Source of the DNA: Candidatus Peregrinibacteria bacterium
GTDB taxonomy: Bacteria > Patescibacteriota > Gracilibacteria > UBA1369 > LOWO2-01-FULL-3
NCBI GenBank assembly: GCA_026395515.1
Contig: JAPLYN010000005.1
Coordinates: 299,521-363,520 of the forward strand
Reading direction: 5' to 3'
DNA: 64,000 nucleotides
Numbering within the stretch: the stretch's first letter is position 1; every line of letters starts with the position of its first letter. Shown here piece after piece: positions 1,528 through 63,729 of this stretch. The notes beneath the pieces were generated by a model. The model had not been told where the DNA came from. It worked only from the letters and a program-made list of their open reading frames with translations, and searched no databases. A program made the translations under genes and the position numbers.

Positions 1528-1562
1528 TTAGTTTGCCAATCCCCTCTCAATTAGCAAATCCT

Positions 1563-2894
1563 ATGAAAAAAGTTTTTTCTATCATCACAGGCTTAATAAG
1601 TTTTCTCACAATATCCAATATCGCCCTAGCTTATAGCGGCGATATTGCTATTGATAAACAAGATATCACTTTTTCTAATGACAACTTTACAGAAGGAAAA
1701 TCAGTTCGTATCTACGCAAACGTCGTAAATAATAGCGCACAAGATTTGCTAGGAGTTGTAAGATATTACGACAGCAACGGACAGATTGGAGGAGACCAAG
1801 TTGTTTCTATTTTTGCAAAAAAAACTGATGGAGTTTTCATAGATTGGCAACCACCATATGGCAAACAAGTGGTTACAGTAAAAATTTTTCCATGGATTCC
1901 AGCAATAGATGATCCAAAAAATAATGATATTTCTACTGAAATATATGTAGCACAAGATACCGATCATGACGGTATTCCAAACGACAGAGATCCAGATATG
2001 GACGGAGACAATGTTCTCAACGCTCAAGACGCTTTTCCAATAGACCCTAAAGAATGGAAAGATACTGACGGCGATGGTATCGGAGATAATTCCGATCCAG
2101 ATATTGATAACGACGGTGTTCCAAATAAATTCGATGAAATGCCTTTGGATGCTAATGAAACTTTAGATACTGACCACGACGGAATTGGAAATATCGCAGA
2201 TACAGATGACGACAATGACGGACTTCTCGACACCCAAGAAGAAAAAATTGGAACAAATCCATTAAAAGCTGACACTGATGGAGATGGAGTTATTGATGGC
2301 AAAGACGCTTTTCCATTAGATCCTAAAGAATGGAAAGATACTGATGGTGACGGTATTGGCAATAATTCCGATACAGATATTGATAACGATGGAATTCCAA
2401 ATACTACCGATCCCTTCCCTACAAACAAAGCCCCAACAATAGGAATAAATGTTAACGATTCCGAAATTTCCATTCCTCCTCAAACTCTACAAACTACAAC
2501 CACAAAAAATTCTGAAATTAATCTCCCAAGTGCTTCAACAACAGTAAGTTTGTTTACTCCTCAAATTTTTGATGCTACTCCTTCCACTGACCAAGACGGA
2601 AAAGTAGTTAGCTACAAATGGGAAATCGACGGCAAAGAAGTAAAAGAAGGAAATGCTATTAATGAAACTTTTAAAACCCTCGGAAAACACCAAATAAAAC
2701 TAACTATAACAGATAATAATGGGCAATCCGTAAGTCAAAATCTTGAAGTTTCCGTCCTAAATATTGGTCTCTACAAAGAAATTGGTCTTACCCTAGCTGC
2801 AATTTTGCTTGCACTCGGAATCTACTTCAAGTATATTGCCGTAGCTAAAGATCGAAAAGATCAAGAAAACACACAAAATAAGTTAAATTTATAA
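1563..2894 (+). CDS. Secreted, membrane-anchored protein with thrombospondin type 3 repeats and PKD domain
   Basis: Predicted surface protein of 443 aa; exact function unknown. A signal peptide (MKK, hydrophobic core, ALA) starts at the ATG at 1563. An in-frame TTG 30 bases upstream would put a polar leader before it, so the ATG is preferred. Residues about 25-125 look like an Ig/CARDB-type beta domain. Residues about 132-290 are D-x-D-x-D-G-type thrombospondin-3 calcium-binding repeats. A PKD-like domain (about 320-395) follows, then one C-terminal transmembrane helix with a short charged tail. TSP3 repeats normally bind calcium on extracellular proteins. A block within the repeat region is duplicated with a 276-base period. 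It lies close behind gyrA and just before rpmE, possibly co-transcribed. Confidence 0.82.
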   Translation: MKKVFSIITGLISFLTISNIALAYSGDIAIDKQDITFSNDNFTEGKSVRIYANVVNNSAQDLLGVVRYYDSNGQIGGDQVVSIFAKKTDGVFIDWQPPYGKQVVTVKIFPWIPAIDDPKNNDISTEIYVAQDTDHDGIPNDRDPDMDGDNVLNAQDAFPIDPKEWKDTDGDGIGDNSDPDIDNDGVPNKFDEMPLDANETLDTDHDGIGNIADTDDDNDGLLDTQEEKIGTNPLKADTDGDGVIDGKDAFPLDPKEWKDTDGDGIGNNSDTDIDNDGIPNTTDPFPTNKAPTIGINVNDSEISIPPQTLQTTTTKNSEINLPSASTTVSLFTPQIFDATPSTDQDGKVVSYKWEIDGKEVKEGNAINETFKTLGKHQIKLTITDNNGQSVSQNLEVSVLNIGLYKEIGLTLAAILLALGIYFKYIAVAKDRKDQENTQNKLNL

Positions 2895-2897
2895 GAT

Positions 2898-3170
2898 ATG
2901 AAAGCTGATATCCACCCAAAATTCGAAACTATCAATTTTATCTGCGCATGCGGAGCAACTTACGTAGCAGGTTCTACTATGAAAGAAGACTTTCATACTG
3001 AAATCTGTTCAGCTTGCCACCCATTCTACACAGGTAAACAGAAATTAATGGATAGTTCAGGTCGTGTAGATAAGTTCGTAGCTAGAATGAAGAAAGCTCA
3101 AGCTACAGCTGAAAAGAAGGTAAAAAAAGTGAAGAAAGACGCAGGAGAAGAGACAGGATCAGAAGATTAA
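2898..3170 (+). CDS. rpmE: 50S ribosomal protein bL31
   Basis: Large-subunit ribosomal protein bL31, 90 aa. The start MKADIHPKF and the motif [13 protein letters not shown] are typical of the family. Four cysteines (C16, C18, C37, C40) form the zinc site of the zinc-binding (C+) type. The C-terminus carries a lysine-rich then acidic extension beyond the usual roughly 70 residues. It starts 3 bases after the preceding stop with no ribosome-binding site. A strong hairpin terminator follows at 3196, so this gene closes the transcription unit. Confidence 0.95.
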
Positions 3171-3195
3171 TCTCAAGCATTCAAATTCTAAATTC

Positions 3196-3227
3196 AAAAG
3201 CTGATTCCAAAAGAGTCAGCTTTTTTT
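3196..3227 (+). terminator. Rho-independent terminator after rpmE
   Basis: AAAAGCTGA (3196..3204) pairs with TCAGCTTTT (3216..3224) and is followed by a T run. The T run merges into the -35 box of the aroC promoter. Confidence 0.85.
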
Positions 3228-3254
3228 GCAATTAAATCTCAAATCCCCTATATT
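3226..3254 (+). promoter_or_regulatory. Sigma70-type promoter of aroC
   Basis: -35 TTGCAA (3226..3231), 17-base spacer, -10 TATATT (3249..3254). The -35 box contains the TTG that a naive reading would take as the aroC start. Confidence 0.65.
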
Positions 3255-3276
3255 TAAGCCATTATTAAACATTTAT

Positions 3277-4359
3277 ATGGCTGGTAATACTTTTGGCACA
3301 TTATTCAGAATCACTACTTGGGGCGAATCTCATGGCCCTGCAACAGGTGTAGTTATCGATGGCTGCCCAGCTGGATTATATCTTAATGAAGCCGATATTC
3401 AGAAAGAAGTGGATCGTCGTCGCCCAGCTTTAGGCTCAAAAATAGCTACAGCACGCCGCGAAAACGACCAAGTTCAGATTTTGTCAGGAGTTTTCGAAGG
3501 TAAAACTACAGGGATGCCAATTTCTTTAATGGTAAACAACGAAGACACTCGTTCTAAAGACTATTCCAATATTCAAGATAAATATCGCCCGGCTCATGCC
3601 GACTACACTTATGATCTAAAATATGGCTTCCGCGATTATCGTGGAGGTGGCAGATCATCTGGTCGCGAAACATTAGCACGAGTAATGGCCGGAGCAATCG
3701 CCAAGAAAATTCTCACACAAAAGGCAAAAACCATGATTTTTGGCCATACTATTCAAGTGGGAGATATTAAAACTAAAAATTTCGACAAATCTGAAATAGA
3801 AAAAAACGAATTGAGATGTGCCGATCCTATGGCTGCCGTGAAAATGCAGAAAATGATAGAAAAACTTCGTTTTACAGAAGGAGATTCAGTTGGTGCCATC
3901 ATAGAAATAATCATTAAAAATCCTCCAAAAGGTCTCGGCGAACCAGTTTTTGATAAACTAGATGCTGACTTGGCAAAAGCCATGATGTCCATCGGAGCGA
4001 TCAAAGCTATCGAAATTGGCGCTGGATTTGAAGCTGCTGCCATGAAAGGCAGCCAAAATAATGATCAAATGGAGAAAAAAGGAGGAAAAGTAAAATTTCT
4101 CACCAATAATAGTGGCGGAATTCTTGGAGGAATCTCCACTGGAGAAGATATTCTTATCAGATTAGGCATAAAACCAGTTCCATCTATTAGCAAATCTCTC
4201 AAAACCATCACCAAATCAGGCGAAAACGCTGAAATTGCCACTCTTGGCCGCCATGATTGCTGCCTAGCTCCAAGAATCATTCCCGTAGCCGAATCCATGG
4301 CCGCATTGGTTCTTGTAGATAAATGGTTAGAGCAAATGGTTCAAAACAGCTTAAGATAA
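3277..4359 (+). CDS. aroC: Chorismate synthase
   Basis: Last step of the shikimate pathway: 5-enolpyruvylshikimate-3-phosphate to chorismate, using reduced FMN. The sequence shows the GESHG signature near the N-terminus, the RPAHADYTY...RDYRGGGRSSGRET region and the C-terminal RHDCCLAPRIIPVAESM block. At 360 aa it has the usual length. The start is the ATG at 3277 (MAGNTFG, the family's normal N-terminus). The upstream TTG falls in the -35 box. No other aromatic-pathway gene lies nearby. It appears to be transcribed alone from its own promoter, just after the rpmE terminator. Confidence 0.96.
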   Translation: MAGNTFGTLFRITTWGESHGPATGVVIDGCPAGLYLNEADIQKEVDRRRPALGSKIATARRENDQVQILSGVFEGKTTGMPISLMVNNEDTRSKDYSNIQDKYRPAHADYTYDLKYGFRDYRGGGRSSGRETLARVMAGAIAKKILTQKAKTMIFGHTIQVGDIKTKNFDKSEIEKNELRCADPMAAVKMQKMIEKLRFTEGDSVGAIIEIIIKNPPKGLGEPVFDKLDADLAKAMMSIGAIKAIEIGAGFEAAAMKGSQNNDQMEKKGGKVKFLTNNSGGILGGISTGEDILIRLGIKPVPSISKSLKTITKSGENAEIATLGRHDCCLAPRIIPVAESMAALVLVDKWLEQMVQNSLR

Positions 4360-41116: not shown

Positions 41117-44100
41117 ATGAGTACTCACAAATTTTTATTTCTGTTTAATAAAGTAAAGAAGAACCTCTTTAAAGAAAGTCGTTTTGTATTTGATGAACCA
41201 GAAACACATCCGACTGCAGAAACTGAAGACCCGAAAGTTAAAGAGGCAAAACTAGCAAAAGAAAAAGAAGAAGAAGAAAAGAGAAAAGCAGCAGAAAGAG
41301 CACCAGAAGCAGATAAAAATGCCCAAGCGATAGTCAAAGAAAATGAACAATTAAATGAAGATTTAAAGAGTTTAGATCAAAAAAAATTCGATAAAATCAT
41401 CAAAGAACGCATTAAAGAAAAAGGATCTAAAGGAGATTTAGAAATAGCTCAAATTGATAAACTTGCTCTTTTTGCTGCGGCAAATGAACCTGAAAAAAAT
41501 GTAAAAGCTTTATTTGAAGAATTCAAAGAACAACGTCTACATACTAATCAATTAAGCGCTGAAACAACAAAATTATTCATTCAAAAATTAAAAGAAGGAG
41601 ATAAAAAAATCTTAATAGATGAATTAATTAAAACAACAGCTACAGCAACTATTCTGATAGAAGCAACAGCCGATGAAGACTTCAAAGAATTACTTACAAA
41701 ATTTAGTGACAGTCAAAAAGCAGATCTATTAAATTCAAAAATAGATGGACCAAAGAAACAAGAAATTTTTGACAATTTAATTAGAGCCAAAATTTTTACA
41801 AATGGAGATTCAGCAACTATAGAAAAAATAATTTTATATGTGTGCAAGGAAAATCCTGGAATGATTAATACAACAATATTCCAAGAATTCACAGGAAGTG
41901 GAGTTGAATCAAAATTTGCAAAACTAACTTATCCAGCAGCAAAAGCTCTATTAGAAATAACATTTCCAAAATTTGACACCGAACAACAAAGTCAAAGTAT
42001 TTTCAACGGTTTGCTAAACAATTTGAGTAAAGAACTTCTCGGAAAATTAATTGGAGATAAAAATTTAAAATTTGAAATAAGAGATAAACTATACAGTAAA
42101 TCACTACCAAGTAGAGTAGATGGCATTTCTAAACCAGTGGAATTATTAAAAGAAGTTACAGAAGATGGCAAACCAGCTGAGGAAGCCGCGAAAACTGTAG
42201 AAAAATCCACAGAAAAAAGAAGAGATATAGAAACTGAGGTTCCAGTTAAAGGAGATAAAAAAGATAAGAAAGGAGCTGTAGTTCCCGCAGAAGGAACAAG
42301 CGCATCATCCCCTGCTTCAACTCCAGCTCAATTTTCAGAAGAGAAAGATTGGAAAGCCATCATTGAAAAAATGGCTGGAGAACTAGAATTCGACGGTAAA
42401 AGCATCTCTTGGACCTTCCCACTAAAAATTGATGGGAAACAAGTTAGTAGCGAACGAAGCTTCCGTGTAACTAAAAAATTCCTTAAAGAATTAAATAAAA
42501 CTGACGAAAATGGTCGTGTGCACAATACAAAAGATAAAGTAAAACTTTGTGCCTATGAATGGCTCTTTAAACACATTTACAAGGGTGATAAAGATGCAGC
42601 CATGAAAGGTAAAGTAGAAGCGTTTAAGGAATCACAAGCATACTTAGTTGAACAAATTGATGCATTAAATGCAAAAATAAAAGCTGAAGCAGAAAAACCT
42701 GGCACTGTTGAAGCTCCAAAACCTGGTGCTGCTGAAGCTCCAAAGCCTGGTGCTGCCGAAGCTCCAAAACCTGGAACTGTTGAAGCCAGACCCGCTGAAA
42801 CTGGCGGTAGAGAAAAAGCTCCAGAAAAAGAACTAACCTTAGCCGAAAAACTTGCAGAAAAAGTTCAAGAACTACAATCAATTGCTGATGAAGTAGCTGA
42901 TAAAAATAGTGATTCAATCGGAGCAGGAAAACGTTCCATCAAAATCGAGGGACCAAAAAGCGAAAACGAAAGTGGCCAAATTTATGCAATCAAAATTGAT
43001 GGTAAAGAAACTACTTTCGTCTTAGACATTGCAAAGAAACAAAATGACAAAAAAGAATTTGAATTCTCATTCAAAAAAGAAATAGGTGAAAAATCAGAAT
43101 ATAAGAGTTACAGCAAAGAAGAAGTAACTGCAAAATTCCAAGGTATTTTGACTCAAAGTCCAGATGAGAGAGCGGTACAAGATTTTGACAAAGCCATCCT
43201 CGAACTCGGTAAAACTGGATACGGAGCTACCATTGAAAACAAAGAGCCAAAAGCTCTCAATGTGACACAATTTACAGCTCTAAAAGACACTTTATCTAAA
43301 ATTAAAACCATCATCAAAGATGGTGAAGATTTACCAAGCATTTTAGAAAAACTAAATAACTTAGCTAGAGATACCCAACCAATAATCGAAAAAACAAGCA
43401 TCGTAAAAATCACCATCAACAGTGATCCAAAAATGGAATGGAACCCATCTAATAAAGATGCACCATTCGGAGAATTTTCAAAATTCGAAGACACAATTAA
43501 AGCCATAAAAATGGCAGAACTTGGTGGAGATAAATCTCCAAAATTCGCAGCATTTATAGAGCAAAGTGAAAAAACTAGCACTGAAAAAGATTATGAAAAA
43601 GATCAAGCAGATAGAATGAAAGAATACCGTGGTAAATATAAATCTTTGACTGAAAAAGTTTACAAAATGAAGTTCGATCTTTATGAAGGTGAAATAGTAA
43701 AGAACTTCAAGAAAATGAGTGGCTACAAGAAAGTTTCAAACATCATGAAGAATCCACCATTTTTCTTCCATGAAACTGGAGAAGTAGCAAAAAAAGTTGG
43801 TGAAATTGTATCTAATGGTCTCAATGACAGAGTAGATTTTGGCGATGTATTTAAAGCAATTAAAGATGTACCTGCCCTAAAAGCAAAAGGTCTAACAAAT
43901 TTAATGGAAGACCCAGATAAGTTCATAAAGACTTTTGATAGATTACTAAGTAAACAAAATCCAGATAAGGGAGATCAAGAACAACTAGAATTGATGTTCA
44001 ACGAAGTTCTCACTCCTTGTTTAGACTTACTAAAAGCACTAGAACAACTTGAATTCAATCCAGATAAACAAAAAGAAAGATCTGAATTGCCTAAAGAAAC

Positions 44101-47100
44101 CACAGGCATCTTAGGAGGTTTAAGCAAATTATGCGACTTCAAGAGCCGAGAACAAGGTGGCTGGGCTAAATTCTTAGGATTGATAAATGGAGCAAAGGGA
44201 GAAATTACTATGGCAGACATTGATGGTAATACAATGTTCGTAACTAAAGACAAATTCCATGATCACTACAGCACAAAAGCTGCCCTAACTATTCTTACAA
44301 ATATTAATGAAGACAAAAACAACGATGGTGAAGTAGATCACTATAGTTTCGATAAGAGTGGAAACAAAGTTTTCAATCAAGAAGCAATGACCAAGGAAAT
44401 AAATGACCTCATTCAATTGGGCGTCACCAATATGGTTATGGCTGAAGCCGGACAAAAAGGATCAAAGATAGCACCAGGAGAAATAGTTGGAATGATTAAG
44501 GAGAAATCTGGAAAATTAATGATCAAAGATTTCAACAATCTAACAAATGAACAGATCTTAGCTTTCCAATTAGGATTCATCGTTAAACAAGCTAGCCAAT
44601 TTGCCACACAGGTAAAAGAAGCCGGACAAATTGTTACAGAATCGAGCGAAGATCCAAGAATCAAAAACAATCCCCTACTAAAACAAGTTGCAAAACAATT
44701 ACTTGAACAGGGATTAAAACCAAGTGAAGTCAAAAAAATTCAAGAAAAATTACTACTTGCCGCAGGAGCTTCATTCGTAAAGACAAATGACGGAAATTAT
44801 GAATTTGAAGGAGGTGCAGTAGGAGTTATGATTCCAATTCCAGATAGCAGATTAAGCATCATGATCCAAATGGGTGGAACAATGAATGGACAATTCATTG
44901 CCGGCATAGGATTAAATATCAAAGTATATGAAGGAGAAACGTTCAAATTCAATGTTGCCACAAACTTAGATCTTAAAGGATTCACTGCAGGCGCAAATGG
45001 CTCAGTAGCGATGGGACAAGTCGATGCCAATGCATTTGTAGGAGTTCGCTTTGGATGGGACAGCATCATTCCAACAGTTGGTGGAGGAGTTGGATTCTCA
45101 TGGAATAGAGATGCTCAATTAAAGAGTAACTTAGAAGAAGCCAAGGAACAAACTGACTACGCTCAAGTATGGGCAGAATGGCAAAAAATGCCTAAATCTG
45201 ATACCGATGCCAAATTTGCTAAATTACAAGAAATCAAACCAGTTTACGACAAAATCGCTCCTGTTATGGCTGAATTCAAACTCAGCAAGGAAGATGTCGT
45301 AACCATGGTAGAAGAAATGAAAGAAGAACTAAATCGTGGAGTTATCCAGGATATGAGTTCACGTATCATTACCTACGTTGGTTTCGCGATGGTTGGTCCA
45401 GTGCCTGTTCCACAAATCGGATTCTCAATTGGTTCAGTAGAAGTTACTACTCCAAACCGTGCAGAAATTTCCAAGATTCTAGGCGAAATTTCAGACATAA
45501 AAGTGACAAAAGCTCTGAAAGAAGCCGTAAAAGAAGTAGATGAAAAACTCAAGAAAGGAGAATCAACACCAATCCTTAAAGAAGGTACAAGCAAACTTGT
45601 TTATGGACGTGACGGTAAATTAATGAGCTTAGTGAAAGAAGAAGAGGTTAAGATGATTGAAGTAAAAAACAATCTTGAAAGCTACAACCAAAGTTTGAAA
45701 CGCACAGAAATGGCATTGGAAAAGAATCCAAATGGCACTATGAAGTTGAAAATATATGGAACAGACAGAAAAGATGTAGAAATCCATATCGATCCACAAC
45801 TCAAAGATCTCGCAATTATCACAGATAAGGGTCAAATTATCATAGAAGGTAATGTGGATAAACTAGTAATAAGCCGTGAGAGATTCTCTCTTCCTTTCGA
45901 AGAGACTGAAGGTAGCGCCACAATGAGAGATATCATTACAATTAGAAGTGCGGAATCATTGGTAACAAATCGCGATAGAACTTGGATTGAAAAATACGAA
46001 AGTAAATTCCTTCAGAAATTAGAAGATGAAGAAAGCTTCTCAATTCAAAAAGGTAATTTTGAAAAAGGAAAACAAGAAAATATACGTTCAGTTGATGGAT
46101 ACTCCTCTAAAAAAGTAGAGGAAATTGCAAAAATTCCAGAGGTGAAAGACTTCATTGCTAAACGCGTAAATCTCGACTCAAGAATAGACAATGCTACTCT
46201 AAAAGAATTAAGAGTATTAATTAAAGAACGTCAAAAAGCCCTTATTGAAGGCAAATTCAGTGAGAAACAGGACGACTTCGACAAAATGGGAACAAGAGAA
46301 AATTTATTTGAAAATTTAGAGGGATTATTCCTAGGAAAGGACAAACTAAGTAAAGCTTTCCGTAAAGAATTTACTAGTGAAATTGATGACCCGGAAGCAC
46401 TAGTAAGCACTTTAATAAAATTTGCCGAACAAACAGACACACTAAAAGATTTAAATGAAAAAGAATTAAATTTAGGCCTCACTCATTTAATCAATGTACA
46501 CTTCACAAATGTATACAAAGAGGCAGCTGACAGAATTAATAAGAAAAAGAAAGGAACAAAAGTGTCAGAGAATGGTAAAGAAGAAGATAGTGAAGATCTA
46601 CAAGATTTAAACAAAAAAGAAATACAAAGAATAAATGGAGAAGTACTAAAAGGGATGAAGAAGAAATTGGAATTCGTAAAAGAAAAAGTTTTCACCAAAT
46701 CTTTCAAGAATGCAGTAAATAACATGGAGCCAAAACCAGAGACTCCAGTTCAAGAATTAATTGATAAATTATTCAAAGATATTTACGAAAAATTAAAAGC
46801 TAAATTATTAGATCCAGACTTCGATTTCCGTACTATTAAAGTTGAAGCAATACCTGGTGGAGCATATCTCTTCTCAGGCTCAAGACTTTACAACGAAAAA
46901 GGAAAAGTCAAAGGAGCAATGTCACAAAACATTGGTTACGAAACTCTAGAAAAAAATCCTAAATTACTTTTAGACTTTGGATTTCTAGAAGGAACAACTG
47001 GCAAATACTCACTTGAATCAAAAGTCCAAGTTGAAAAAGACCTAGCACGTGTAATGCTCGAACTCGCTAGTCCAATTCCTAAAGATGACGCAGAATTCTT

Positions 47101-47740
47101 ACGCAGTCCACTAGCAATGAAATTTGCAGGACTTCAAGCTACTGCCCTACTCACTTATGACGAAGGAAGCAAATTTGATGACTATAAGAAAATTTCAGAA
47201 ATTTATAAAAACCCAGAACTATTAACAGAGCCAGCCTATAAAGCATCTCTCGACAAATATAGAGCAGTTATCAATGAAATTCGTGGAACACAATTAGACG
47301 GAAAAACATTTGAAAAGAAAATTGGAAACACCGGACTCACAGTGAAATTGAAAATGAATACAGACATAAGCTATGGCGCATATTCTAAATGTACCAATAC
47401 TAGTTTCTATGTAAATGAAGTTGGAGAAATTGAAATCAGCCAAGAGACAATGAGCGGAGGCAAAGGATTAATCGCTAAATTCAACACCACTAACGAAGTA
47501 GTTTCTACAGATGTAAGCAAGATTTTTGCTTCAGTCGTGATTGGTGCCGGATTCAGAAGCGAAAGAGTATCTAGTGAAGGAAGCGGAGGCAAACATTCTG
47601 AACAAGGAGTTAAAGATAAACCAGTTGATGATAAATCCTCTGCAAGTGGACCAGCACCAGCCCAACCAGTTGCAGGAGAACAGCAAGCAAAAGTTCCTGT
47701 TCAACCAGCATCACAAAGTGCTTCACCTCATAAACATTAA
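41117..47740 (+). CDS. Giant protein of unknown function (2207 aa)
   Basis: I do not recognise a family. There is no signal peptide or clear membrane helix. An acidic/lysine-rich start (about 25-90) leads to a helical stretch (about 90-340). A low-complexity linker with four KPGxxEAP repeats (527-558) separates two regions that each contain an IDGK strand motif. Residues 1066-1074 read DKNNDGEVD, an EF-hand-like calcium loop. Residues about 1231-1335 are glycine-rich alternating strands (GGTMNGQFIAGIGLNIKV, VGVRFGWDS, VGGGVGFSW), like a beta-barrel or beta-solenoid piece. Long charged helical regions follow, then a Pro/Gln/Ser tail. A near-consensus promoter drives it, and a 1649-aa secreted protein follows 29 bases downstream. 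Confidence 0.75.
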   Translation: MSTHKFLFLFNKVKKNLFKESRFVFDEPETHPTAETEDPKVKEAKLAKEKEEEEKRKAAERAPEADKNAQAIVKENEQLNEDLKSLDQKKFDKIIKERIKEKGSKGDLEIAQIDKLALFAAANEPEKNVKALFEEFKEQRLHTNQLSAETTKLFIQKLKEGDKKILIDELIKTTATATILIEATADEDFKELLTKFSDSQKADLLNSKIDGPKKQEIFDNLIRAKIFTNGDSATIEKIILYVCKENPGMINTTIFQEFTGSGVESKFAKLTYPAAKALLEITFPKFDTEQQSQSIFNGLLNNLSKELLGKLIGDKNLKFEIRDKLYSKSLPSRVDGISKPVELLKEVTEDGKPAEEAAKTVEKSTEKRRDIETEVPVKGDKKDKKGAVVPAEGTSASSPASTPAQFSEEKDWKAIIEKMAGELEFDGKSISWTFPLKIDGKQVSSERSFRVTKKFLKELNKTDENGRVHNTKDKVKLCAYEWLFKHIYKGDKDAAMKGKVEAFKESQAYLVEQIDALNAKIKAEAEKPGTVEAPKPGAAEAPKPGAAEAPKPGTVEARPAETGGREKAPEKELTLAEKLAEKVQELQSIADEVADKNSDSIGAGKRSIKIEGPKSENESGQIYAIKIDGKETTFVLDIAKKQNDKKEFEFSFKKEIGEKSEYKSYSKEEVTAKFQGILTQSPDERAVQDFDKAILELGKTGYGATIENKEPKALNVTQFTALKDTLSKIKTIIKDGEDLPSILEKLNNLARDTQPIIEKTSIVKITINSDPKMEWNPSNKDAPFGEFSKFEDTIKAIKMAELGGDKSPKFAAFIEQSEKTSTEKDYEKDQADRMKEYRGKYKSLTEKVYKMKFDLYEGEIVKNFKKMSGYKKVSNIMKNPPFFFHETGEVAKKVGEIVSNGLNDRVDFGDVFKAIKDVPALKAKGLTNLMEDPDKFIKTFDRLLSKQNPDKGDQEQLELMFNEVLTPCLDLLKALEQLEFNPDKQKERSELPKETTGILGGLSKLCDFKSREQGGWAKFLGLINGAKGEITMADIDGNTMFVTKDKFHDHYSTKAALTILTNINEDKNNDGEVDHYSFDKSGNKVFNQEAMTKEINDLIQLGVTNMVMAEAGQKGSKIAPGEIVGMIKEKSGKLMIKDFNNLTNEQILAFQLGFIVKQASQFATQVKEAGQIVTESSEDPRIKNNPLLKQVAKQLLEQGLKPSEVKKIQEKLLLAAGASFVKTNDGNYEFEGGAVGVMIPIPDSRLSIMIQMGGTMNGQFIAGIGLNIKVYEGETFKFNVATNLDLKGFTAGANGSVAMGQVDANAFVGVRFGWDSIIPTVGGGVGFSWNRDAQLKSNLEEAKEQTDYAQVWAEWQKMPKSDTDAKFAKLQEIKPVYDKIAPVMAEFKLSKEDVVTMVEEMKEELNRGVIQDMSSRIITYVGFAMVGPVPVPQIGFSIGSVEVTTPNRAEISKILGEISDIKVTKALKEAVKEVDEKLKKGESTPILKEGTSKLVYGRDGKLMSLVKEEEVKMIEVKNNLESYNQSLKRTEMALEKNPNGTMKLKIYGTDRKDVEIHIDPQLKDLAIITDKGQIIIEGNVDKLVISRERFSLPFEETEGSATMRDIITIRSAESLVTNRDRTWIEKYESKFLQKLEDEESFSIQKGNFEKGKQENIRSVDGYSSKKVEEIAKIPEVKDFIAKRVNLDSRIDNATLKELRVLIKERQKALIEGKFSEKQDDFDKMGTRENLFENLEGLFLGKDKLSKAFRKEFTSEIDDPEALVSTLIKFAEQTDTLKDLNEKELNLGLTHLINVHFTNVYKEAADRINKKKKGTKVSENGKEEDSEDLQDLNKKEIQRINGEVLKGMKKKLEFVKEKVFTKSFKNAVNNMEPKPETPVQELIDKLFKDIYEKLKAKLLDPDFDFRTIKVEAIPGGAYLFSGSRLYNEKGKVKGAMSQNIGYETLEKNPKLLLDFGFLEGTTGKYSLESKVQVEKDLARVMLELASPIPKDDAEFLRSPLAMKFAGLQATALLTYDEGSKFDDYKKISEIYKNPELLTEPAYKASLDKYRAVINEIRGTQLDGKTFEKKIGNTGLTVKLKMNTDISYGAYSKCTNTSFYVNEVGEIEISQETMSGGKGLIAKFNTTNEVVSTDVSKIFASVVIGAGFRSERVSSEGSGGKHSEQGVKDKPVDDKSSASGPAPAQPVAGEQQAKVPVQPASQSASPHKH
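42695..42790 (+). repeat. Four in-frame 24-bp repeats (KPGxxEAP linker)
   Basis: Units start at 42695, 42719, 42743 and 42767. Each is close to AAACCTGGTGCTGCTGAAGC plus four more bases, and together they encode a proline/alanine spacer in the 2207-aa protein. Confidence 0.9.
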
Positions 47741-47769
47741 TATTTAAATAATAAAAATAAAATAAAAAT

Positions 47770-50700
47770 ATGAAAACGCCAAAACTATTTAAATCACTGC
47801 TTCTCAGCATACTAGGTATCGCAGTCGTAATAACAACTGCACATGCCGACAATCTTCAAAACATAACGAAGTACACTCCAGACAGACCAGGAGTAAATTT
47901 TGTTGAAGGTATGCAAGGATTTCCGTATCCGACTTTCAACAATTTCATAAATCAGCCAAACCTAATTGGCGGTGCTTTCGAAGGAGATGAAAGAAAATTT
48001 GCGATTGGAAAATACTGTCCAGCAGCTAAATGTGATGATAATGGTATCTATGTAAATACTATCCAGACAGCTGTAAAAGATGGAGATGTTTTGAGAATGG
48101 AATTGTATTTTCACAACAATGGCGAAGATGCATATGACAATGGAGGAACAACAAGTCCTGATGCAAAAAATGTACAAATTGGTGTCGACCTAAACAACAT
48201 TCAAGATCCAGATCATGATTACATGGTAAGACCACGTGGTTTTATTACAGCGGACAACAATGAATATCGTACAGATAGAACACAAATTTCCACTCAAATC
48301 AAAGATGCTAATGGAAACGTAATCCACACAGCAACTGATGATTTACAGGTTTTACTATCAGAATATGGGCTTGAACTTCAACCCGTAAAAGATAGTGCTT
48401 GGTTATATGTTCAAAACCAAACAACAACAGATGGTTACTATGACGACTATGTGAAAGGTCCTACAAGTCTAACATTTAAAACAGTTAAACCTGCAACTCA
48501 AACTATCAATGTAAGCCCAAACTATACAGACAAAAAAATGTGGCTTAATTTTGATAGAATACCTGGATGTTTCAGATACAGTGGATTCGCATACTTCGAC
48601 GTTAAAGTAGTGAAAAAAGCTACTCCACCAAACGTTTGTACCGAACTCAAAGCCACTCTAGACGATAAAAATCCAATTAAACTTAATGGCAATGATCTTT
48701 ACCCAATGACGGTAAACAGCATCACTTTTGCGCCACAAAATAATGTTCCTAATGATGCAGAATTAAAATGGACAACAGATGATTCAAACGGAAAATTCTA
48801 CTTCGACGTGCCCATGGCAACGCCAAAATTACCTCCAAAAAAAGTTGAAATTACCAAAAACGCTGACGGATCTGTAAACACAAGTACAGACACTACGGTT
48901 TATTATTCTGGCAAACCAGAATCTAAAATCAAAGTCACATTAGATAACATTCCAGCCGACCAAGTAGGTCCTCTATGTAACGCTTCAATGCAAACTCCAG
49001 CAGTACTCGAATGTACTGATCTTCTCGTAGATCACCCAGAACATATTTATGAAAATACATACTCTGTATTCAAAGCAAAAGCTCTTGGATCAGATGGTAA
49101 AGATCTCACAGGAAAAATTAAATATTGGGTAGATTCAGGATATGGAGAATTCTATACAGTTGCTCCTACAGGCGTTGCACAAAATAAATCTAAGATGGTG
49201 TATGAAGCGACACCTACAAGCAAAACATTCCCATTCGGAGACAATACTTTTAAACCAGATTTCACATTAGATCCAAAGATTTTCGTCGCTGGAAATAGCA
49301 ACAGCCAAGCAGCTGAAACTTTTATCTATCTTGCACCAAAATTTGCCGCAGGAACATTCGGTATCCAAGACGTTTCTGGCAACATTCAAGATCAAGGAAA
49401 ACTTGGACTCGCAGTTCAAATCAAATTCCTTGAATTGCCAAAATGGGTTACTAGTCCTATTCCAATGAATATCAACCCAGTTGATCCAAATCCAAACAGC
49501 AGCAAAGGCGCATTCAATCCATCCAATTATGGACAAAACAATGTACTTCTAGCAGTTGCTGGAGTAGGTGCTACAGATAAGATTGGCAATAGTTACCCTA
49601 CTGCAATTGATGGGACAAAGTTCATGAACCAGCCTAGCTCAGGAAGTCTATTCGATTTAAATATTGACCCAAATAAAGCTATTGGACCTGGGCAAAATAT
49701 TGATATACAAAATGCCGCTACACTTGGAAATTCAAAACAATTCTTCTTCAGTTCCCTATTCGAATCAATCACAGTTGATCCAGGAACTACGGTTTATTTT
49801 AACGCTAAAAAACCAGGAAAAGGAGTAATCCACGTACAAGTAATTGGTAGCACAAATCCAGATTGTTCAAGAACTTTCGATATTGAAGGTTTATGTAAAA
49901 CACTAGCTTTGGAAAGCTCTCCTGCCAACCCTCTAGTTGGAAATGAAATCACTTTAAACAAAGTGACATTAACAGACTCAACAGGAAAAGTTCTCCCAAG
50001 TTCTACAAACACTAACCTCACAACAACAGCAGGTGGCACATTCAAAACAGCCACACTCTCAAACATTATCTCAGCAAAAGTAAGTGACTTCCCTGTGAAA
50101 ACCACTCCTACTAAAGAAGGTACTGTCACAGTAACTATGGACCCAAACGATCCTGCGTATTCTGCAGCTTGTTCAAGTTCAGTGACTGTAAGTAAACCGG
50201 CATCTCAGGAATGTACGGCTCTTACTCTAAATATCTCAGAAAAAGGAATTACAACAAAACAAAATCCTCAAATTCTACAAAAAAACAAACAGTACATTAT
50301 TAGTGCAAGTCTCACTACAAAGTTGCCGAACGAAAACATGGTGACCTACTCTATCGACAAAGCTTATGGATCATTCTTCGATCCATTGAAACCTACAACT
50401 CCTATACAAACAATGACTGTAGGTGAAAACACTGAAGTTATTCTTCAAACCTATGATGGTCCAGTAAATACATCTGGAACTGATCTTGTTCCTAATGTTC
50501 TTAAAGTAAATGGCGTAGGATATGGAGACGCATGTAGCAAACCTCTTCCATTCAATAATCCTGCACCTGCACTCGCTTGTAACAGCATAAATGTAGATCC
50601 ACACGGTGATAGCTTTGACCCTACATCTAACGCATTCATCCCATTTACTATTAATGGCAATTTCAAAGACCACAATGGTGAAATTCGTGTAAGCATCAAG

Positions 50701-52719
50701 AGCAGCGGAGTACAAGGTTCAAAACCAACTATCAAACGTGCTGATGGTTCACAATCAACAGAGAATGGTTATATCACATTCACAAGTGATGAAGTTAAAA
50801 ACAGTAACAACCAACTAGGATTTATCTATACAAGCAATAATTTTGGTGACAGCATAACTGTTAATAACACTACCAAAGAGACATTAGACATTATTACAAC
50901 AGCCGTAGGATCATCAAATACAGCATGTAATTATCCAATTCATAAAGAAGTTTCAAGTGATCAAACATGTGAAAAAACTAATTCATGTCCTCCAGGTCCA
51001 GACAAATACACTGCACCAACATTCAGCAAAGCGTCATTCGTTGATCACAACATCAAAGATGCAGGTCCTGTTTCTAATCTTAAGAAAACAAATCACACAG
51101 TTACTTATGCTATTTCATTAGACACCGGAAATAACATCAGCGACCTCGCTACAATTTGGGATGCTTCATTGAAAGATGGAGGCACAATCTACAAGAAAGG
51201 CGTTTCAACTTGTAACCCTACAATTGCCGGATGTCTCCAAATTAAAGGAATGGAAATAAATTGGGTAAAAACTTCTGGCGGAAAAGTTTCTTTCAAAAAA
51301 ACATTATTTAAAGATAACTTCAATAACGAATCATATAAATTCGATAGCGAATTATCCGATGATGATATTAAAGATTTGAAATCAAGCTACGAACTAAATG
51401 ATTGTAGCAAAAATACAAACACAGATGAACCATGTATTGATACAGGCATAAATAAACCAAGTCTCGATGCATTTGCTGCAAACATCAAATCTACATTCAG
51501 CGCTGGAGGAGGCCTAAAATTTAGACATCTAGGAAAACTTTCAACTGGAAATAAGATTATTATCAAATACCAAATGGATTATGTATTTGGTGAAGATTTA
51601 AGCTCTAGATGTGAAAGATACAAGAATTCTAAAGATGGTTGCGGTGAACAATTCGAAAACACAGCATATTATACTGCTCTAAAGAAAACATCTGGTACTT
51701 ACAGTGAAAATAAAACTGCAAAAGTAGTAGCTATCTGTCCTTACGTTCTTTCTCGTAATGGAGGAGATGTATTCTTCCACGATGTAGTTGATACAGGTTC
51801 AGACGTAAGCCAATGTTACGAAGTTAAATCTTGTGACGGACCTTGTATTCAACCAGAATCAGATAAAGAAAAAACAACACCTAGTACTGGTACTGGAGCA
51901 AGCGGTAATGCACCTCTTCTCAAATCTCCATCACATGATGTTTGTAGCAAGAGTAACATCTCAAAAGAACAGACAGGCGGTAATGAAGGTCTAGATGCTT
52001 ACCAAGACGTCCTCAAAAACTTCTCAAGTAGCATTTGTGAATTACGTGCCGATGTATCCAAAGCTTGGACAAAACAAAACGTAACAGATTCAATTAACGC
52101 AAACGTGAAGAGACTTTCAAGATTTGGTTCAAACATAAGTGAAATACCTTCAGCGTCATCAACACACAATCTTCCACAAGATCCAAGCGGAGTATTTGTA
52201 AAAGTTGGTGGATCATTCACTATTGGAAATGGTCTACAAGATTACGTAATTGGAAATAAACTGGAAGATCGTGCAATCCCAGCTGCTCAAACCTATATCG
52301 TAATAGGTGGCAACCTAAGAATTAAATCAAACATTGTTTATGACAATAATTTAGATTTCGTTACAACATTTGATAAAACTCGTATCGCTTCCGCAGCCTT
52401 CATAGTAATCGGCGGCAACATTGAAATCGACGATAACGTAAGCCAAATTGACGGTATCATTATGGCCGTAGAAGACTCTAAAGGTAACGGAGGAAAAATT
52501 AAAGCAACAGGAGATATTTCTACTGATACAACAATCCTAAACATCAATGGTAACCTCATTGGTGACGTTTATAACCTCTTCAAGAATCGCCAAGCAGTTG
52601 GTGACCCACTTAAAGATCAAGGTTCTGTAAACATCCATTATGACGAACGTATTCTCTTGAATCCTCCATCAGGAATCAATGAGCTCATCAATCTACAGCA
52701 AGTAGTCGTTCCAAACTAA
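47770..52719 (+). CDS. Giant secreted multi-domain surface protein (1649 aa)
   Basis: A signal peptide (MKTPKLFKSLLLSILGIAVV...AHA) marks export. The N-terminal region (about 60-285) is a beta-rich module in a style seen in other CPR surface proteins. Five Ig-like modules follow. Each opens with a Cys-x-x-L/I motif (C290, C415, C709, C815, C937) and closes with another Cys, which suggests disulfide-bracketed repeats. An additional domain (about 1080-1360) precedes a C-terminal region with VIGGNLRIKSN, VIGGNIEIDDN and INGNLIGDVYNL strands that look like a beta-helix, then NIHYDERILLNPPSG. No LPXTG, SLH or clear transmembrane anchor is seen. A surface or adhesin role is inferred. A terminator follows. 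Confidence 0.75.
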   Translation: MKTPKLFKSLLLSILGIAVVITTAHADNLQNITKYTPDRPGVNFVEGMQGFPYPTFNNFINQPNLIGGAFEGDERKFAIGKYCPAAKCDDNGIYVNTIQTAVKDGDVLRMELYFHNNGEDAYDNGGTTSPDAKNVQIGVDLNNIQDPDHDYMVRPRGFITADNNEYRTDRTQISTQIKDANGNVIHTATDDLQVLLSEYGLELQPVKDSAWLYVQNQTTTDGYYDDYVKGPTSLTFKTVKPATQTINVSPNYTDKKMWLNFDRIPGCFRYSGFAYFDVKVVKKATPPNVCTELKATLDDKNPIKLNGNDLYPMTVNSITFAPQNNVPNDAELKWTTDDSNGKFYFDVPMATPKLPPKKVEITKNADGSVNTSTDTTVYYSGKPESKIKVTLDNIPADQVGPLCNASMQTPAVLECTDLLVDHPEHIYENTYSVFKAKALGSDGKDLTGKIKYWVDSGYGEFYTVAPTGVAQNKSKMVYEATPTSKTFPFGDNTFKPDFTLDPKIFVAGNSNSQAAETFIYLAPKFAAGTFGIQDVSGNIQDQGKLGLAVQIKFLELPKWVTSPIPMNINPVDPNPNSSKGAFNPSNYGQNNVLLAVAGVGATDKIGNSYPTAIDGTKFMNQPSSGSLFDLNIDPNKAIGPGQNIDIQNAATLGNSKQFFFSSLFESITVDPGTTVYFNAKKPGKGVIHVQVIGSTNPDCSRTFDIEGLCKTLALESSPANPLVGNEITLNKVTLTDSTGKVLPSSTNTNLTTTAGGTFKTATLSNIISAKVSDFPVKTTPTKEGTVTVTMDPNDPAYSAACSSSVTVSKPASQECTALTLNISEKGITTKQNPQILQKNKQYIISASLTTKLPNENMVTYSIDKAYGSFFDPLKPTTPIQTMTVGENTEVILQTYDGPVNTSGTDLVPNVLKVNGVGYGDACSKPLPFNNPAPALACNSINVDPHGDSFDPTSNAFIPFTINGNFKDHNGEIRVSIKSSGVQGSKPTIKRADGSQSTENGYITFTSDEVKNSNNQLGFIYTSNNFGDSITVNNTTKETLDIITTAVGSSNTACNYPIHKEVSSDQTCEKTNSCPPGPDKYTAPTFSKASFVDHNIKDAGPVSNLKKTNHTVTYAISLDTGNNISDLATIWDASLKDGGTIYKKGVSTCNPTIAGCLQIKGMEINWVKTSGGKVSFKKTLFKDNFNNESYKFDSELSDDDIKDLKSSYELNDCSKNTNTDEPCIDTGINKPSLDAFAANIKSTFSAGGGLKFRHLGKLSTGNKIIIKYQMDYVFGEDLSSRCERYKNSKDGCGEQFENTAYYTALKKTSGTYSENKTAKVVAICPYVLSRNGGDVFFHDVVDTGSDVSQCYEVKSCDGPCIQPESDKEKTTPSTGTGASGNAPLLKSPSHDVCSKSNISKEQTGGNEGLDAYQDVLKNFSSSICELRADVSKAWTKQNVTDSINANVKRLSRFGSNISEIPSASSTHNLPQDPSGVFVKVGGSFTIGNGLQDYVIGNKLEDRAIPAAQTYIVIGGNLRIKSNIVYDNNLDFVTTFDKTRIASAAFIVIGGNIEIDDNVSQIDGIIMAVEDSKGNGGKIKATGDISTDTTILNINGNLIGDVYNLFKNRQAVGDPLKDQGSVNIHYDERILLNPPSGINELINLQQVVVPN

Positions 52720-60872: not shown

Positions 60873-61478
60873 ATGAAAAGTACTAGCGTCAATTGTGTCA
60901 TTCTCGGCCATCGTGATTTCACTGAAAATGACAAACTAATTTTTCTATACACAGAAGAATTTGGGAAAATTAAAGTCATTGCAAAAGGAGGTCGTAAGAT
61001 TACCAGCAAGTTTACCGGACACGTGGAAACTCTGAATTTTGCCATGGCTGAAATTTACTTTGGACCAAAAAATATTATTCTCAAAGAAATAATTACTATA
61101 AAAAATTTCAAAAAAATACGCGATAATTTGGAAAGACTTTCAGCCGCTATTCAAATTGCCGAAATTACCAATCACCTACTTTATGAAGGTCAAAAATTAG
61201 ACAATTTAATGGGTCTACTTACAGATACTCTACAACAGCTCAGCACCTCGACAAAACCCGCATTAACAAGCCAAGCATACATGATCAAAATTCTTGATCA
61301 ATCAGGCCTTGTTCCTGACTTCAAAAACATCATCAGCAACCTCGACCAAAAATATTTAAAATTCTTCCACTACCTCCAAACTCAACCACTAAACGCCATA
61401 GATAAAATAAACGTCACCGAAAAAGAAAACGAAACTATAAACCTAGTCATTAAAAAAATTATCAACTACAACTCATAA
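60873..61478 (+). CDS. recO: DNA repair protein RecO
   Basis: Helps load RecA on SSB-covered DNA with RecR. The 201-aa protein has the N-terminal OB-fold (NCVILGHRDFTENDKLIFLYTEEFGKIKVIAKGGRK) and a helical domain. It is at the short end of the family and lacks the C-terminal zinc-finger cysteines seen in many RecO proteins. It is coupled with ftsX. Its last six bases overlap the stop region of the convergent relA-like gene. Confidence 0.88.
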   Translation: MKSTSVNCVILGHRDFTENDKLIFLYTEEFGKIKVIAKGGRKITSKFTGHVETLNFAMAEIYFGPKNIILKEIITIKNFKKIRDNLERLSAAIQIAEITNHLLYEGQKLDNLMGLLTDTLQQLSTSTKPALTSQAYMIKILDQSGLVPDFKNIISNLDQKYLKFFHYLQTQPLNAIDKINVTEKENETINLVIKKIINYNS

Positions 61479-63689
61479 GCCAGCATTTCTAAAAACTTCA
61501 TCGGCTCTATTCACTTTTATTACACCTTCAATATCCTCTAAACGATTTAACAATTCGTTAAATTGATCAAAGTCATTCATATCTAACAAGAAGTAATCAT
61601 AATGCAATTTATCTTCTCCTCTTTTAATCATAATATCTAAAATATTAATCTTCAATTTGCCCATAACCGCAGCAATATCCTGAATCAAACCTACTCTAGA
61701 AAATACCTCGAGTTTTATACCAACTCTAAATCCATTATCTCTTGCCACGGCTTCATGCCCCTTCCATTCAGCAAAAATAACCTTTTCGCGATTTAAAGTA
61801 TCAACAACTGGACAATTCAATTTATGAATACTTATACGTTTACCACGGCTATTTACATATCCCATAATTGGCTGACCTATTTCAGGCTTACAACAAGCCG
61901 CAATCTTTGCTGGAAAACCTGTCTGTCCACCAACAACAACTTGCTGTTCCAATGGAAGAACTGGCACAACTTTTAGTTTCTTTTTTGTAGCAGCAGATTC
62001 AGCTTTTTCCGTACTCATTCCAGCAGGCAAAATCTTTTCATATGGATATATTTTTTTGACAACATCGGTAGCAAACTTACTTCCACGTCCCACTTCTTCC
62101 AACAAAGCTTCACGCTGACTCAAAGTCAAATTTGCATCTCCAAAATCCTTCAATAGTGAATAATTTTGATCTAGTGGAGGCTTATTCAAACGCTCTAGTT
62201 GAGTATTAATTAATTCCCTACCACTCTTTAAATTTTTATCTTTATGCTGACCACTAAACCAAGCCTTAATTTTATTTTTAGCAAAACCACTCTTAACCAT
62301 TGAAAGCCATTTCACCTTTGGAATAGCATCATTTCTCAAAACAATTTCCACCACGTCTCCATTTTGTAATTGATAATCAAGAGGCACAATCACCCCATTA
62401 ACCTTTGCCGAAATACAGTGATTTCCCACATCCGTATGTACAGCATAAGCAAAATCCAAAGGGATAGCACCAACAGGAAGATCCTTAACTTCACCTCTAG
62501 GAGTAAGTACAAAAATCCTATCCTTGAAAATATCAATTTCAACTTCCTTCATTACATCTGAAGACTCTGAACCAAAAAACTCATGAATTTGCTCGAGACC
62601 ACGAATCCAATCCACATGACGATTCAAATCCTCCATTGAAGAAGATCTATTAGTCTTATAGAGCCAATGCGAAGCAATACCATACTCAGCCTCACGATGC
62701 ATTTTCTCATCTCTAATTTGTATCTCCACGGGCTTATCAAAACCCTTCGGTCCCATTCCCAAGACCACAGTGTGCAAACTTCTATAACCATTAGGTTTTG
62801 GTACGGCTACATAATCCTTAAATCTACTAGAAATAGGTTTCCATTCACTATGAATCAAACCAAGTGCCGCATACAAATGATCATAATTTTCTTTCTCCGG
62901 CAAAATAACTCTAATAGCAAAAAAATCGTATAAATCATAAAGATTTACATATCCTTTCTTCGCCAACTTTGTATAAATACTATAAAAATTTTTAATACGT
63001 CCGTGAACCTCAGCCTCTATTCCTCGAGCTCTCAAAAAAGCTACAAGCTGATCCCTTATAACTTCAATAGGCATACCTTTAGTCTCAGTAAACTCCTTAA
63101 TCTGATCAGTAAGTTTCTCCCACTCTTCAGGATTCAAATATCTAAAAGCCAAATCTTCTAATTGGATTTTAATCTTATAAATACCTAAACGTGAAGCAAT
63201 TGGCACATACACATTCATTGTTTCCTTAGCAAAATGGTAACTTTCAGCAGGACTCATGGCTTGAATCAAATTCTGCATCATGCATAAACGATGAGCCAAC
63301 CAAATCAAAATAACCCTCACATCTTTAGCCAAGGTCATAAACATTTTACGCAAAACTTCAACCTGAGTACCCTTATCATTTTCAGAATACTTAAGCCCAT
63401 AAATTTTTCTCAGAGAATTTAAAATTTCCAAGACATTAGGTCCAAAATTAGTAAGCACAGTGTCCTCACTAATCATCGACATCACAAACAAATCATGCAA
63501 AAGAATAGCCACGATTGTATCTTCATCAGGCTTCAAAGGAAGCAAAATTTCCAAGACACATAAATGAAAATTTTGGCTATTATCTAATGAAGCATACTTT
63601 TCAGTAGCAAAATCGAAAGCTTTCAAAATTCTAGCTTTATCAAAAAGCTTCCTGTAACTACTTATTTTTTCCAGTATTTCCGTACTCAT
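61473..63689 (-). CDS. RelA/SpoT-family (p)ppGpp synthetase with degenerate hydrolase domain
   Basis: Long RSH protein of 738 aa. The N-terminal HD hydrolase domain keeps HD (65-66) but the following Glu-Asp pair is FVMS (68-71), and the usual LADRLHNM reads LAHRLCMM (131-138), so hydrolase activity is probably lost. The synthetase domain looks intact: GRIKNFYSIYTKL, LYDFFAIRV, RFKDYVAVPKPNGYRSLHT (RFKD 289-292), VEIQIR (321-326) and AEYGIASHW. TGS (about 388-450), a CC-containing regulatory domain (IAACCKPEIGQPI) and a C-terminal ACT domain follow. The start is the ATG at 63689; the ATG at 63725 overlaps a TATAAT box. The stop is TGA. Confidence 0.92.
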   Translation of the reverse strand: MSTEILEKISSYRKLFDKARILKAFDFATEKYASLDNSQNFHLCVLEILLPLKPDEDTIVAILLHDLFVMSMISEDTVLTNFGPNVLEILNSLRKIYGLKYSENDKGTQVEVLRKMFMTLAKDVRVILIWLAHRLCMMQNLIQAMSPAESYHFAKETMNVYVPIASRLGIYKIKIQLEDLAFRYLNPEEWEKLTDQIKEFTETKGMPIEVIRDQLVAFLRARGIEAEVHGRIKNFYSIYTKLAKKGYVNLYDLYDFFAIRVILPEKENYDHLYAALGLIHSEWKPISSRFKDYVAVPKPNGYRSLHTVVLGMGPKGFDKPVEIQIRDEKMHREAEYGIASHWLYKTNRSSSMEDLNRHVDWIRGLEQIHEFFGSESSDVMKEVEIDIFKDRIFVLTPRGEVKDLPVGAIPLDFAYAVHTDVGNHCISAKVNGVIVPLDYQLQNGDVVEIVLRNDAIPKVKWLSMVKSGFAKNKIKAWFSGQHKDKNLKSGRELINTQLERLNKPPLDQNYSLLKDFGDANLTLSQREALLEEVGRGSKFATDVVKKIYPYEKILPAGMSTEKAESAATKKKLKVVPVLPLEQQVVVGGQTGFPAKIAACCKPEIGQPIMGYVNSRGKRISIHKLNCPVVDTLNREKVIFAEWKGHEAVARDNGFRVGIKLEVFSRVGLIQDIAAVMGKLKINILDIMIKRGEDKLHYDYFLLDMNDFDQFNELLNRLEDIEGVIKVNRADEVFRNAGL

Positions 63690-63723
63690 TTTTAGCAAAA
63701 AAAATAACGACTCTTGAGAGTAC

Positions 63724-63729
63724 ATTATA
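63724..63729 (-). promoter_or_regulatory. -10 element of the relA-like gene
   Basis: Minus strand TATAAT (63729..63724), 34 bases before the ATG at 63689. No clear -35. Confidence 0.45.

Follow-up and report, generated by a model that had tools for sequence, protein, structure and literature searches.

How does a cell dispose of the (p)ppGpp that it makes if the hydrolase domain of its RSH protein looks dead? This question is raised by a minus-strand gene in the stretch of Candidatus Peregrinibacteria DNA analyzed here (64,000 nucleotides; hereafter, the window). In the first-pass annotation, made from the letters of the window, the product of this gene (protein A) was noted to combine a dead-looking hydrolase domain with a synthetase motif of the kind usually linked to bifunctional enzymes, and it was reasoned that, were this the only RSH protein, the cell would lack an obvious way to degrade (p)ppGpp. 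Among named records, two MAGs of Candidatus Peribacteria come closest (80 and 88% identity; NCBI phylum Candidatus Peregrinibacteriota).

Protein A and its probable pseudo-hydrolase domain

The open reading frame (ORF) of protein A, a putative RelA-like synthetase-only stringent factor, was confirmed on the minus strand at 61473..63725, which gives 750 aa from the first ATG. The alternative in-frame ATG of the first-pass annotation (61473..63689, 738 aa) is a plausible start because three relatives from the same genus trim to 738 to 739 aa. Pfam searches recovered RelA_SpoT (9.4e-34), HD_4 (2.2e-27, the match beginning at profile position 22), TGS (6e-23), and ACT_4 (1.3e-10), and the protein has the domain order of long RSH proteins: HD (residues 16 to 182 of the 750-aa frame; 63180..63680), SYNTH (62649..63002), TGS (62340..62516), a conserved-cysteine region of the zinc-finger type with a CCKP motif (approximately residues 594 to 655; 61761..61946), and ACT (RRM; 61506..61736), all on the minus strand. 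It scores 538 bits against the general RSH model TIGR00691 (spoT_relA; cutoff, 499) and falls below the cutoffs of both equivalog models, those of E. coli-type RelA and SpoT. Among solved structures, it matches most closely in sequence the ribosome-bound RelA of E. coli (5iqr; 1.8e-113), followed by a 797-aa chain labeled RelA (8fr8; 1.1e-110). A convergent ORF (60873..61478, plus strand; RecO-like as read by eye), whose end overlaps that of the protein A gene by 6 bases, lies outside the RSH system, and a promoter scan gave no signal worth using above shuffled sequences. Elsewhere in the window (41117-52719), there are two very large adjoining plus-strand ORFs of 2,207 and 1,649 aa.

We scored the catalytic residues on an L-INS-i alignment of protein A with E. 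coli RelA, SpoT, and 146 other RSH proteins, focusing in the hydrolase domain on H53, H77, D78, E81, D82, and D144 (RelSeq numbering), which we take to be the metal ligands and the catalytic pair. Protein A retains two of these six (H77 and D78); H53, E81, D82, and D144 are changed, as are N148 and T151, and the stretch around R44 is deleted. The losses are concentrated in two motifs that correspond to HDVIEDT and LADRTHNM of E. coli SpoT, namely, HDLFVMS (residues 77 to 83; 63477..63497, minus strand), where the HD is kept and the Glu-Asp pair is lost, and LAHRLCMM (residues 143 to 150; 63276..63299, minus strand), where the Asp and Asn of LADRLHNM are lost. The dead-looking hydrolase of the first-pass annotation is thus borne out, and the compensating catalytic residues that would have spoken for the contrary were not seen. 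Chance is no issue for these losses because the residues are lost in all 27 family copies in which they can be read, with 13 of 13 synthetase positions kept.

A predicted model of protein A superposes on S. aureus Rel (7oiw) with a TM-score of 0.88 (normalized to target length; 2.7 Å over 347 columns), the whole-chain model itself being of moderate quality (mean pLDDT, 68), and protein A is accordingly predicted to keep the fold of the Rel catalytic region, with the HD fold intact. This intact fold and the surviving H77-D78 are what one would expect if protein A were still a weak hydrolase, with other residues replacing those lost. Such an activity is very improbable, however, since protein A has lost two metal ligands (H53 and D144) as well as the E81-D82 pair and the positions that are retained vary among relatives, down to none of six in G010, G013, and G019, a pattern of decay rather than of a new site. 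Purifying selection nonetheless acts on the pseudo-HD domain, which is not junk: its dN/dS against three genomes of the same genus is 0.093 (G002), 0.121 (G003), and 0.153 (G001), values that are rough, as several synonymous distances are near saturation. According to one report (PMC8012599), the synthetase of E. coli RelA is regulated by its pseudo-HD domain, which makes a regulatory role in protein A a fair inference; by this analogy, the domain may be retained as a structural or regulatory module.

On the synthetase side, protein A has all 13 scored positions and the loop SRFKDY, which confirms the RFKD reported earlier (residues 301 to 304; 62814..62825, minus strand). The accompanying reading of RFKD as the bifunctional type stands for ancestry and fails as a sign of activity: 53 of 59 dead-hydrolase Rel-type proteins have RXKD, the others having KXKD (four), RFRD (one), and EFCD (one) and none EXDD, and RXKD is found in 18/18 intact-hydrolase Rel-type proteins of the same alignment. 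Going by these sequences, RFKD is best regarded as the ancestral motif and not as a predictor of hydrolase activity. The census likewise ties EXDD to descent from proteobacterial RelA and not to the loss of the hydrolase; the two features, often read together, are here separated. Work cited in PMC3153485 ties RXKD to a preference for GTP and EXDD to one for GDP. The single EFCD protein (L170; G111:C21) is a Rel-type protein on a 5.2-kb contig that clusters with E. coli RelA (0.97), which suggests transfer or contamination.

A second RSH protein with a predicted membrane tail

The premise that protein A is the only RSH protein, and hence that the cell has no degrader, proved wrong. The genome (1.30 Mb, 99.93% complete) contains exactly two RelA_SpoT and two HD_4 matches, and the genome search proposed in the first-pass annotation recovered a second RSH protein (protein B, 775 aa) on a different contig (G000:C5:28882-31209, plus strand). 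The same search gave no small alarmone hydrolase, as the HD_4 matches are those of A and B; a third RSH protein, a further HD_4 protein (HD-only alarmone hydrolase), and Ppx/GppA (PF02541) were likewise not found in this genome. The gene for protein B lies between sortase-like and YchF-like ORFs, both named by eye and both on the opposite strand (L262:7829-12287).

The hydrolase domain of protein B has all six positions (HDVPEDT and LADRLHNM). Its synthetase is worn, with 10 of 13 scored positions retained (counting RFRD as kept) and changes of Arg to Lys in GR-K, Arg to Lys after EIQI, and His to Asn in AAHW. Both acidic residues (the equivalents of D264 and E323) are kept, so protein B may make some (p)ppGpp. 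Its domain order is HD, SYNTH, TGS, and ACT, followed by four hydrophobic segments beginning at approximately residues 646, 683, 718, and 745, and it has no CCxP zinc-finger region. By the hydropathy rule applied to protein B, RelA and SpoT of E. coli are free of such segments, and none of 96 Rel-type proteins has two or more C-terminal transmembrane (TM) segments.

Hence, we consider it highly probable, judging from residues and domain architecture, that protein A is a RelA-like (p)ppGpp synthetase-only protein with a pseudo-hydrolase and that breakdown falls to the unlinked, membrane-tailed protein B. Protein A would then be orthologous to Rel, in a bacterium resembling the Peribacteria; it would synthesize (p)ppGpp, be unable to degrade it, and, given its TGS, zinc-finger-type, and ACT domains, sense starved ribosomes as Rel and RelA do. 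Breakdown would pass to protein B, with its complete HD site, worn synthetase, missing zinc-finger domain, and four predicted TM helices; with B at the membrane, the place and signal of breakdown would be set apart from those of synthesis. We infer the enzymatic activities of both proteins, the ribosomal control of A, and the membrane location of B from these features. Such a pair would amount to a RelA/SpoT-like division of labor reached outside the Beta- and Gammaproteobacteria, by a separate road and in a tiny freshwater/ultra-small bacterium.

Distribution of the pair and of other hydrolases among relatives

In the family of the window (f1; 30 genomes), we recovered 28 Rel-type proteins of at least 450 aa (a list of 29 contains one extra short RSH protein of G018); in G006 and G025, the Rel-type protein is seen only as contig-edge pieces. 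The hydrolase domain is readable in 27 of the proteins, each keeping 0 to 3 of the 6 positions, and all 13 synthetase positions are present in 28/28. B-type proteins of at least 500 aa occur in 26 of the 30 genomes, 25 of them with at least three C-terminal TM segments in a position-limited count; the one left over, a piece with a broken frame, likewise has four TM segments. G014 and G024 have hydrolase-domain pieces of a second protein, and none was seen in G020 and G026 (79 and 76% complete, respectively). The wear of the B synthetase is uneven, with the D264 or E323 equivalent lost in 11 of 26 copies and all 13 positions kept in 3. As read from these sequences, hydrolase loss in A is universal among the readable copies of the family, and synthetase loss in B appears to be under way. 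The converse scenario, in which protein A is decaying altogether and protein B is the only active bifunctional enzyme, could draw on the full hydrolase and the D264/E323 equivalents of B. We give it scant credence: the synthetase that is worn in the family is that of B, that of A is complete in every f1 copy recovered, and the dN/dS of A is low in all domains that allowed its calculation.

For the class, we listed 118 relatives and fetched the RSH loci of 103, of which 10 were dropped: G111 and G028 by hand; G006, G025, and G113, where the Rel-type protein is a short piece; and G034, G037, G051, G061, and G071, which have no Rel-type protein among their loci. In the resulting 93-genome table, the presence of another hydrolase was set by hand from motifs in six genomes (G010, G024, G068, G093, G109, and G114), and G043, whose HD protein is weak, was scored as lacking one. 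With "dead" taken as four or fewer of the six positions kept, which takes in partial losses (f8, f10, G045, G052, G064, and G087) and leaves G114 (five of six) as intact, another intact-HD protein is found in 66 of 68 dead-HD genomes versus 11 of 25 intact-HD genomes. This association has a Fisher P of 2.7e-8 when kinship is ignored; the kinship-corrected version has no power, as it comes down to only five independent pairs (about 1.7 in agreement and 0 against; median P, 0.5). The two dead-HD genomes without another intact hydrolase are assemblies of 79 and 76% completeness. Outside the table, the RelA-like protein of G111 (96% complete, with fragmented contigs) is dead, and an intact HD was not found in this genome. 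The dead/intact label requires at least eight changes on the Rel-type tree. In a tree of synthetase plus TGS, most families have their B-type proteins in a supported clade (0.98) that is separate from the Rel-type one, and several fall outside it, among them both from f7, three from f4, and L095, so that B need not have a single origin. L095 itself (694-4014, plus strand; G062) is a 1,103-aa RSH protein in which every scored position is intact, in hydrolase and synthetase alike, and whose ACT domain is followed by a long additional C-terminal part.

The split might also hold with the membrane tethering of B being incidental, that is, with the hydrophobic tail being a decayed, functionless domain. 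The tail matches no known Pfam domain, and 15 of 76 B-type proteins have fewer than two TM segments in the position-limited count (some of these being pieces from contig ends or broken frames). We regard this alternative as rather unlikely, because at least three helices are present in 59/76 B-type proteins, drawn from no fewer than 10 families, the tail has near-invariant columns (in alignment A1, E182 and P110, the latter not conserved in protein B of the present genome), and the tail dN/dS of protein B within the genus is 0.03 to 0.13. A profile of ACT plus tail matched 44 of 286 genomes from the phylum; RelA_SpoT is present in 196 of these 286. The profile was built from divergent tails and could miss distant ones, and its tail-spanning matches (eight genomes) are confined to the order of the window, which contributes 12 of the 286 genomes drawn; in the other 36, the match is shorter and partial, in most cases covering just ACT.

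Second hydrolases of other kinds occur in some members of the order and in lineages beyond it, either TM proteins of 910 to 935 aa or HD-only proteins (G104 and G090). The eight former (f8, f12, f19, f20, and f30) have an intact hydrolase, a destroyed synthetase, and seven to nine TM segments. Three of them match the Pfam EamA transporter above the cutoff (L142:806-3637, plus strand, G040; L218:843-3614, plus strand, G071; and L232:699-3428, minus strand, G112); two of the further five match it more weakly (L227 and L230), and the others are L228, L231, and L233. G104 encodes four HD-only proteins of 178 to 243 aa (L255 to L258) and a Rel-type protein with a dead hydrolase. Third RSH proteins of 622 to 640 aa in G038, G050, and G067 (L136, L139, and L152, respectively) have an intact or nearly intact HD domain, a degenerate synthetase, and no TM segment.

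We tentatively entertain, as a possible if doubtful extension of the synthetase/hydrolase split, that protein B is a membrane-embedded hydrolase whose ACT domain and four-helix tail read the state of the envelope, ions, or nutrients, that Rel is soluble and synthesis-only, and that the EamA-type fusions of the wider class are a second route to this arrangement. Such natural membrane-tailed and transporter-fused alarmone hydrolases would make nutrient or envelope input to (p)ppGpp breakdown testable; the EamA-type fusion, if true, would link degradation of the alarmone straight to the uptake of nutrients.

Comparison with known RSH systems

Like RelA[hS] of the Beta- and Gammaproteobacteria, as described in PMC3153485 and PMC8012599, protein A is a full-length long RSH protein with a complete synthetase and a pseudo-HD domain and is paired with a hydrolase-competent paralog. 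A candidate assignment of protein A to proteobacterial RelA itself was ruled out by motif, loop, and tree: it has RFKD, unlike the EXDD of RelA[hS]; its HD loop between helices 6 and 7 is not extended (22 residues, versus 27 in E. coli RelA and 21 in SpoT); and in the tree it belongs with the Rel-type proteins of its own class, apart from RelA. It also scores 424.8 bits against the NCBIfam RelA model PRK10872 (cutoff, 728). With bifunctional Rel[HS], it shares RXKD but not the intact HD residues.

Protein B resembles SpoT[Hs] of the Moraxellaceae (A. baumannii), for which PMC9974481 describes an intact HD domain and a degenerate synthetase, and its residues (6/6 and 10/13) conform to a SpoT with an intact HD and a weak or lost synthetase. 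Unlike SpoT, which has TGS, helical, zinc-finger, and ACT domains and no membrane segment, it lacks CCxP and has four predicted TM segments after ACT. The pair can also be likened, by description, to RshB of the Bacteroidetes, a duplicate of Rel whose HD domain has diverged strongly (PMC3153485); in contrast to that other phylum, here the canonical Rel-type copy has lost the hydrolase and the odd copy has kept it. Another likeness by description is Arabidopsis RSH1, a long RSH protein for which a TM region (811-827 and 848-864) was once proposed; according to PMC5633626, it is located in the chloroplast and anchoring to the cell membrane was not upheld. In partial coverage of the literature, we found no study of (p)ppGpp enzymes of the Candidate Phyla Radiation/Patescibacteria/Peribacteria/Gracilibacteria, no description of a membrane-tailed RSH protein other than this plant proposal, and no hydrolase-transporter (EamA) fusion. 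A hydrolase-dead long RSH protein beside a hydrolase-competent one is the known pattern of RelA/SpoT and RshB; what is unusual here is the lineage, the retention of RXKD, the membrane tail, and the transporter-fused hydrolases of relatives.
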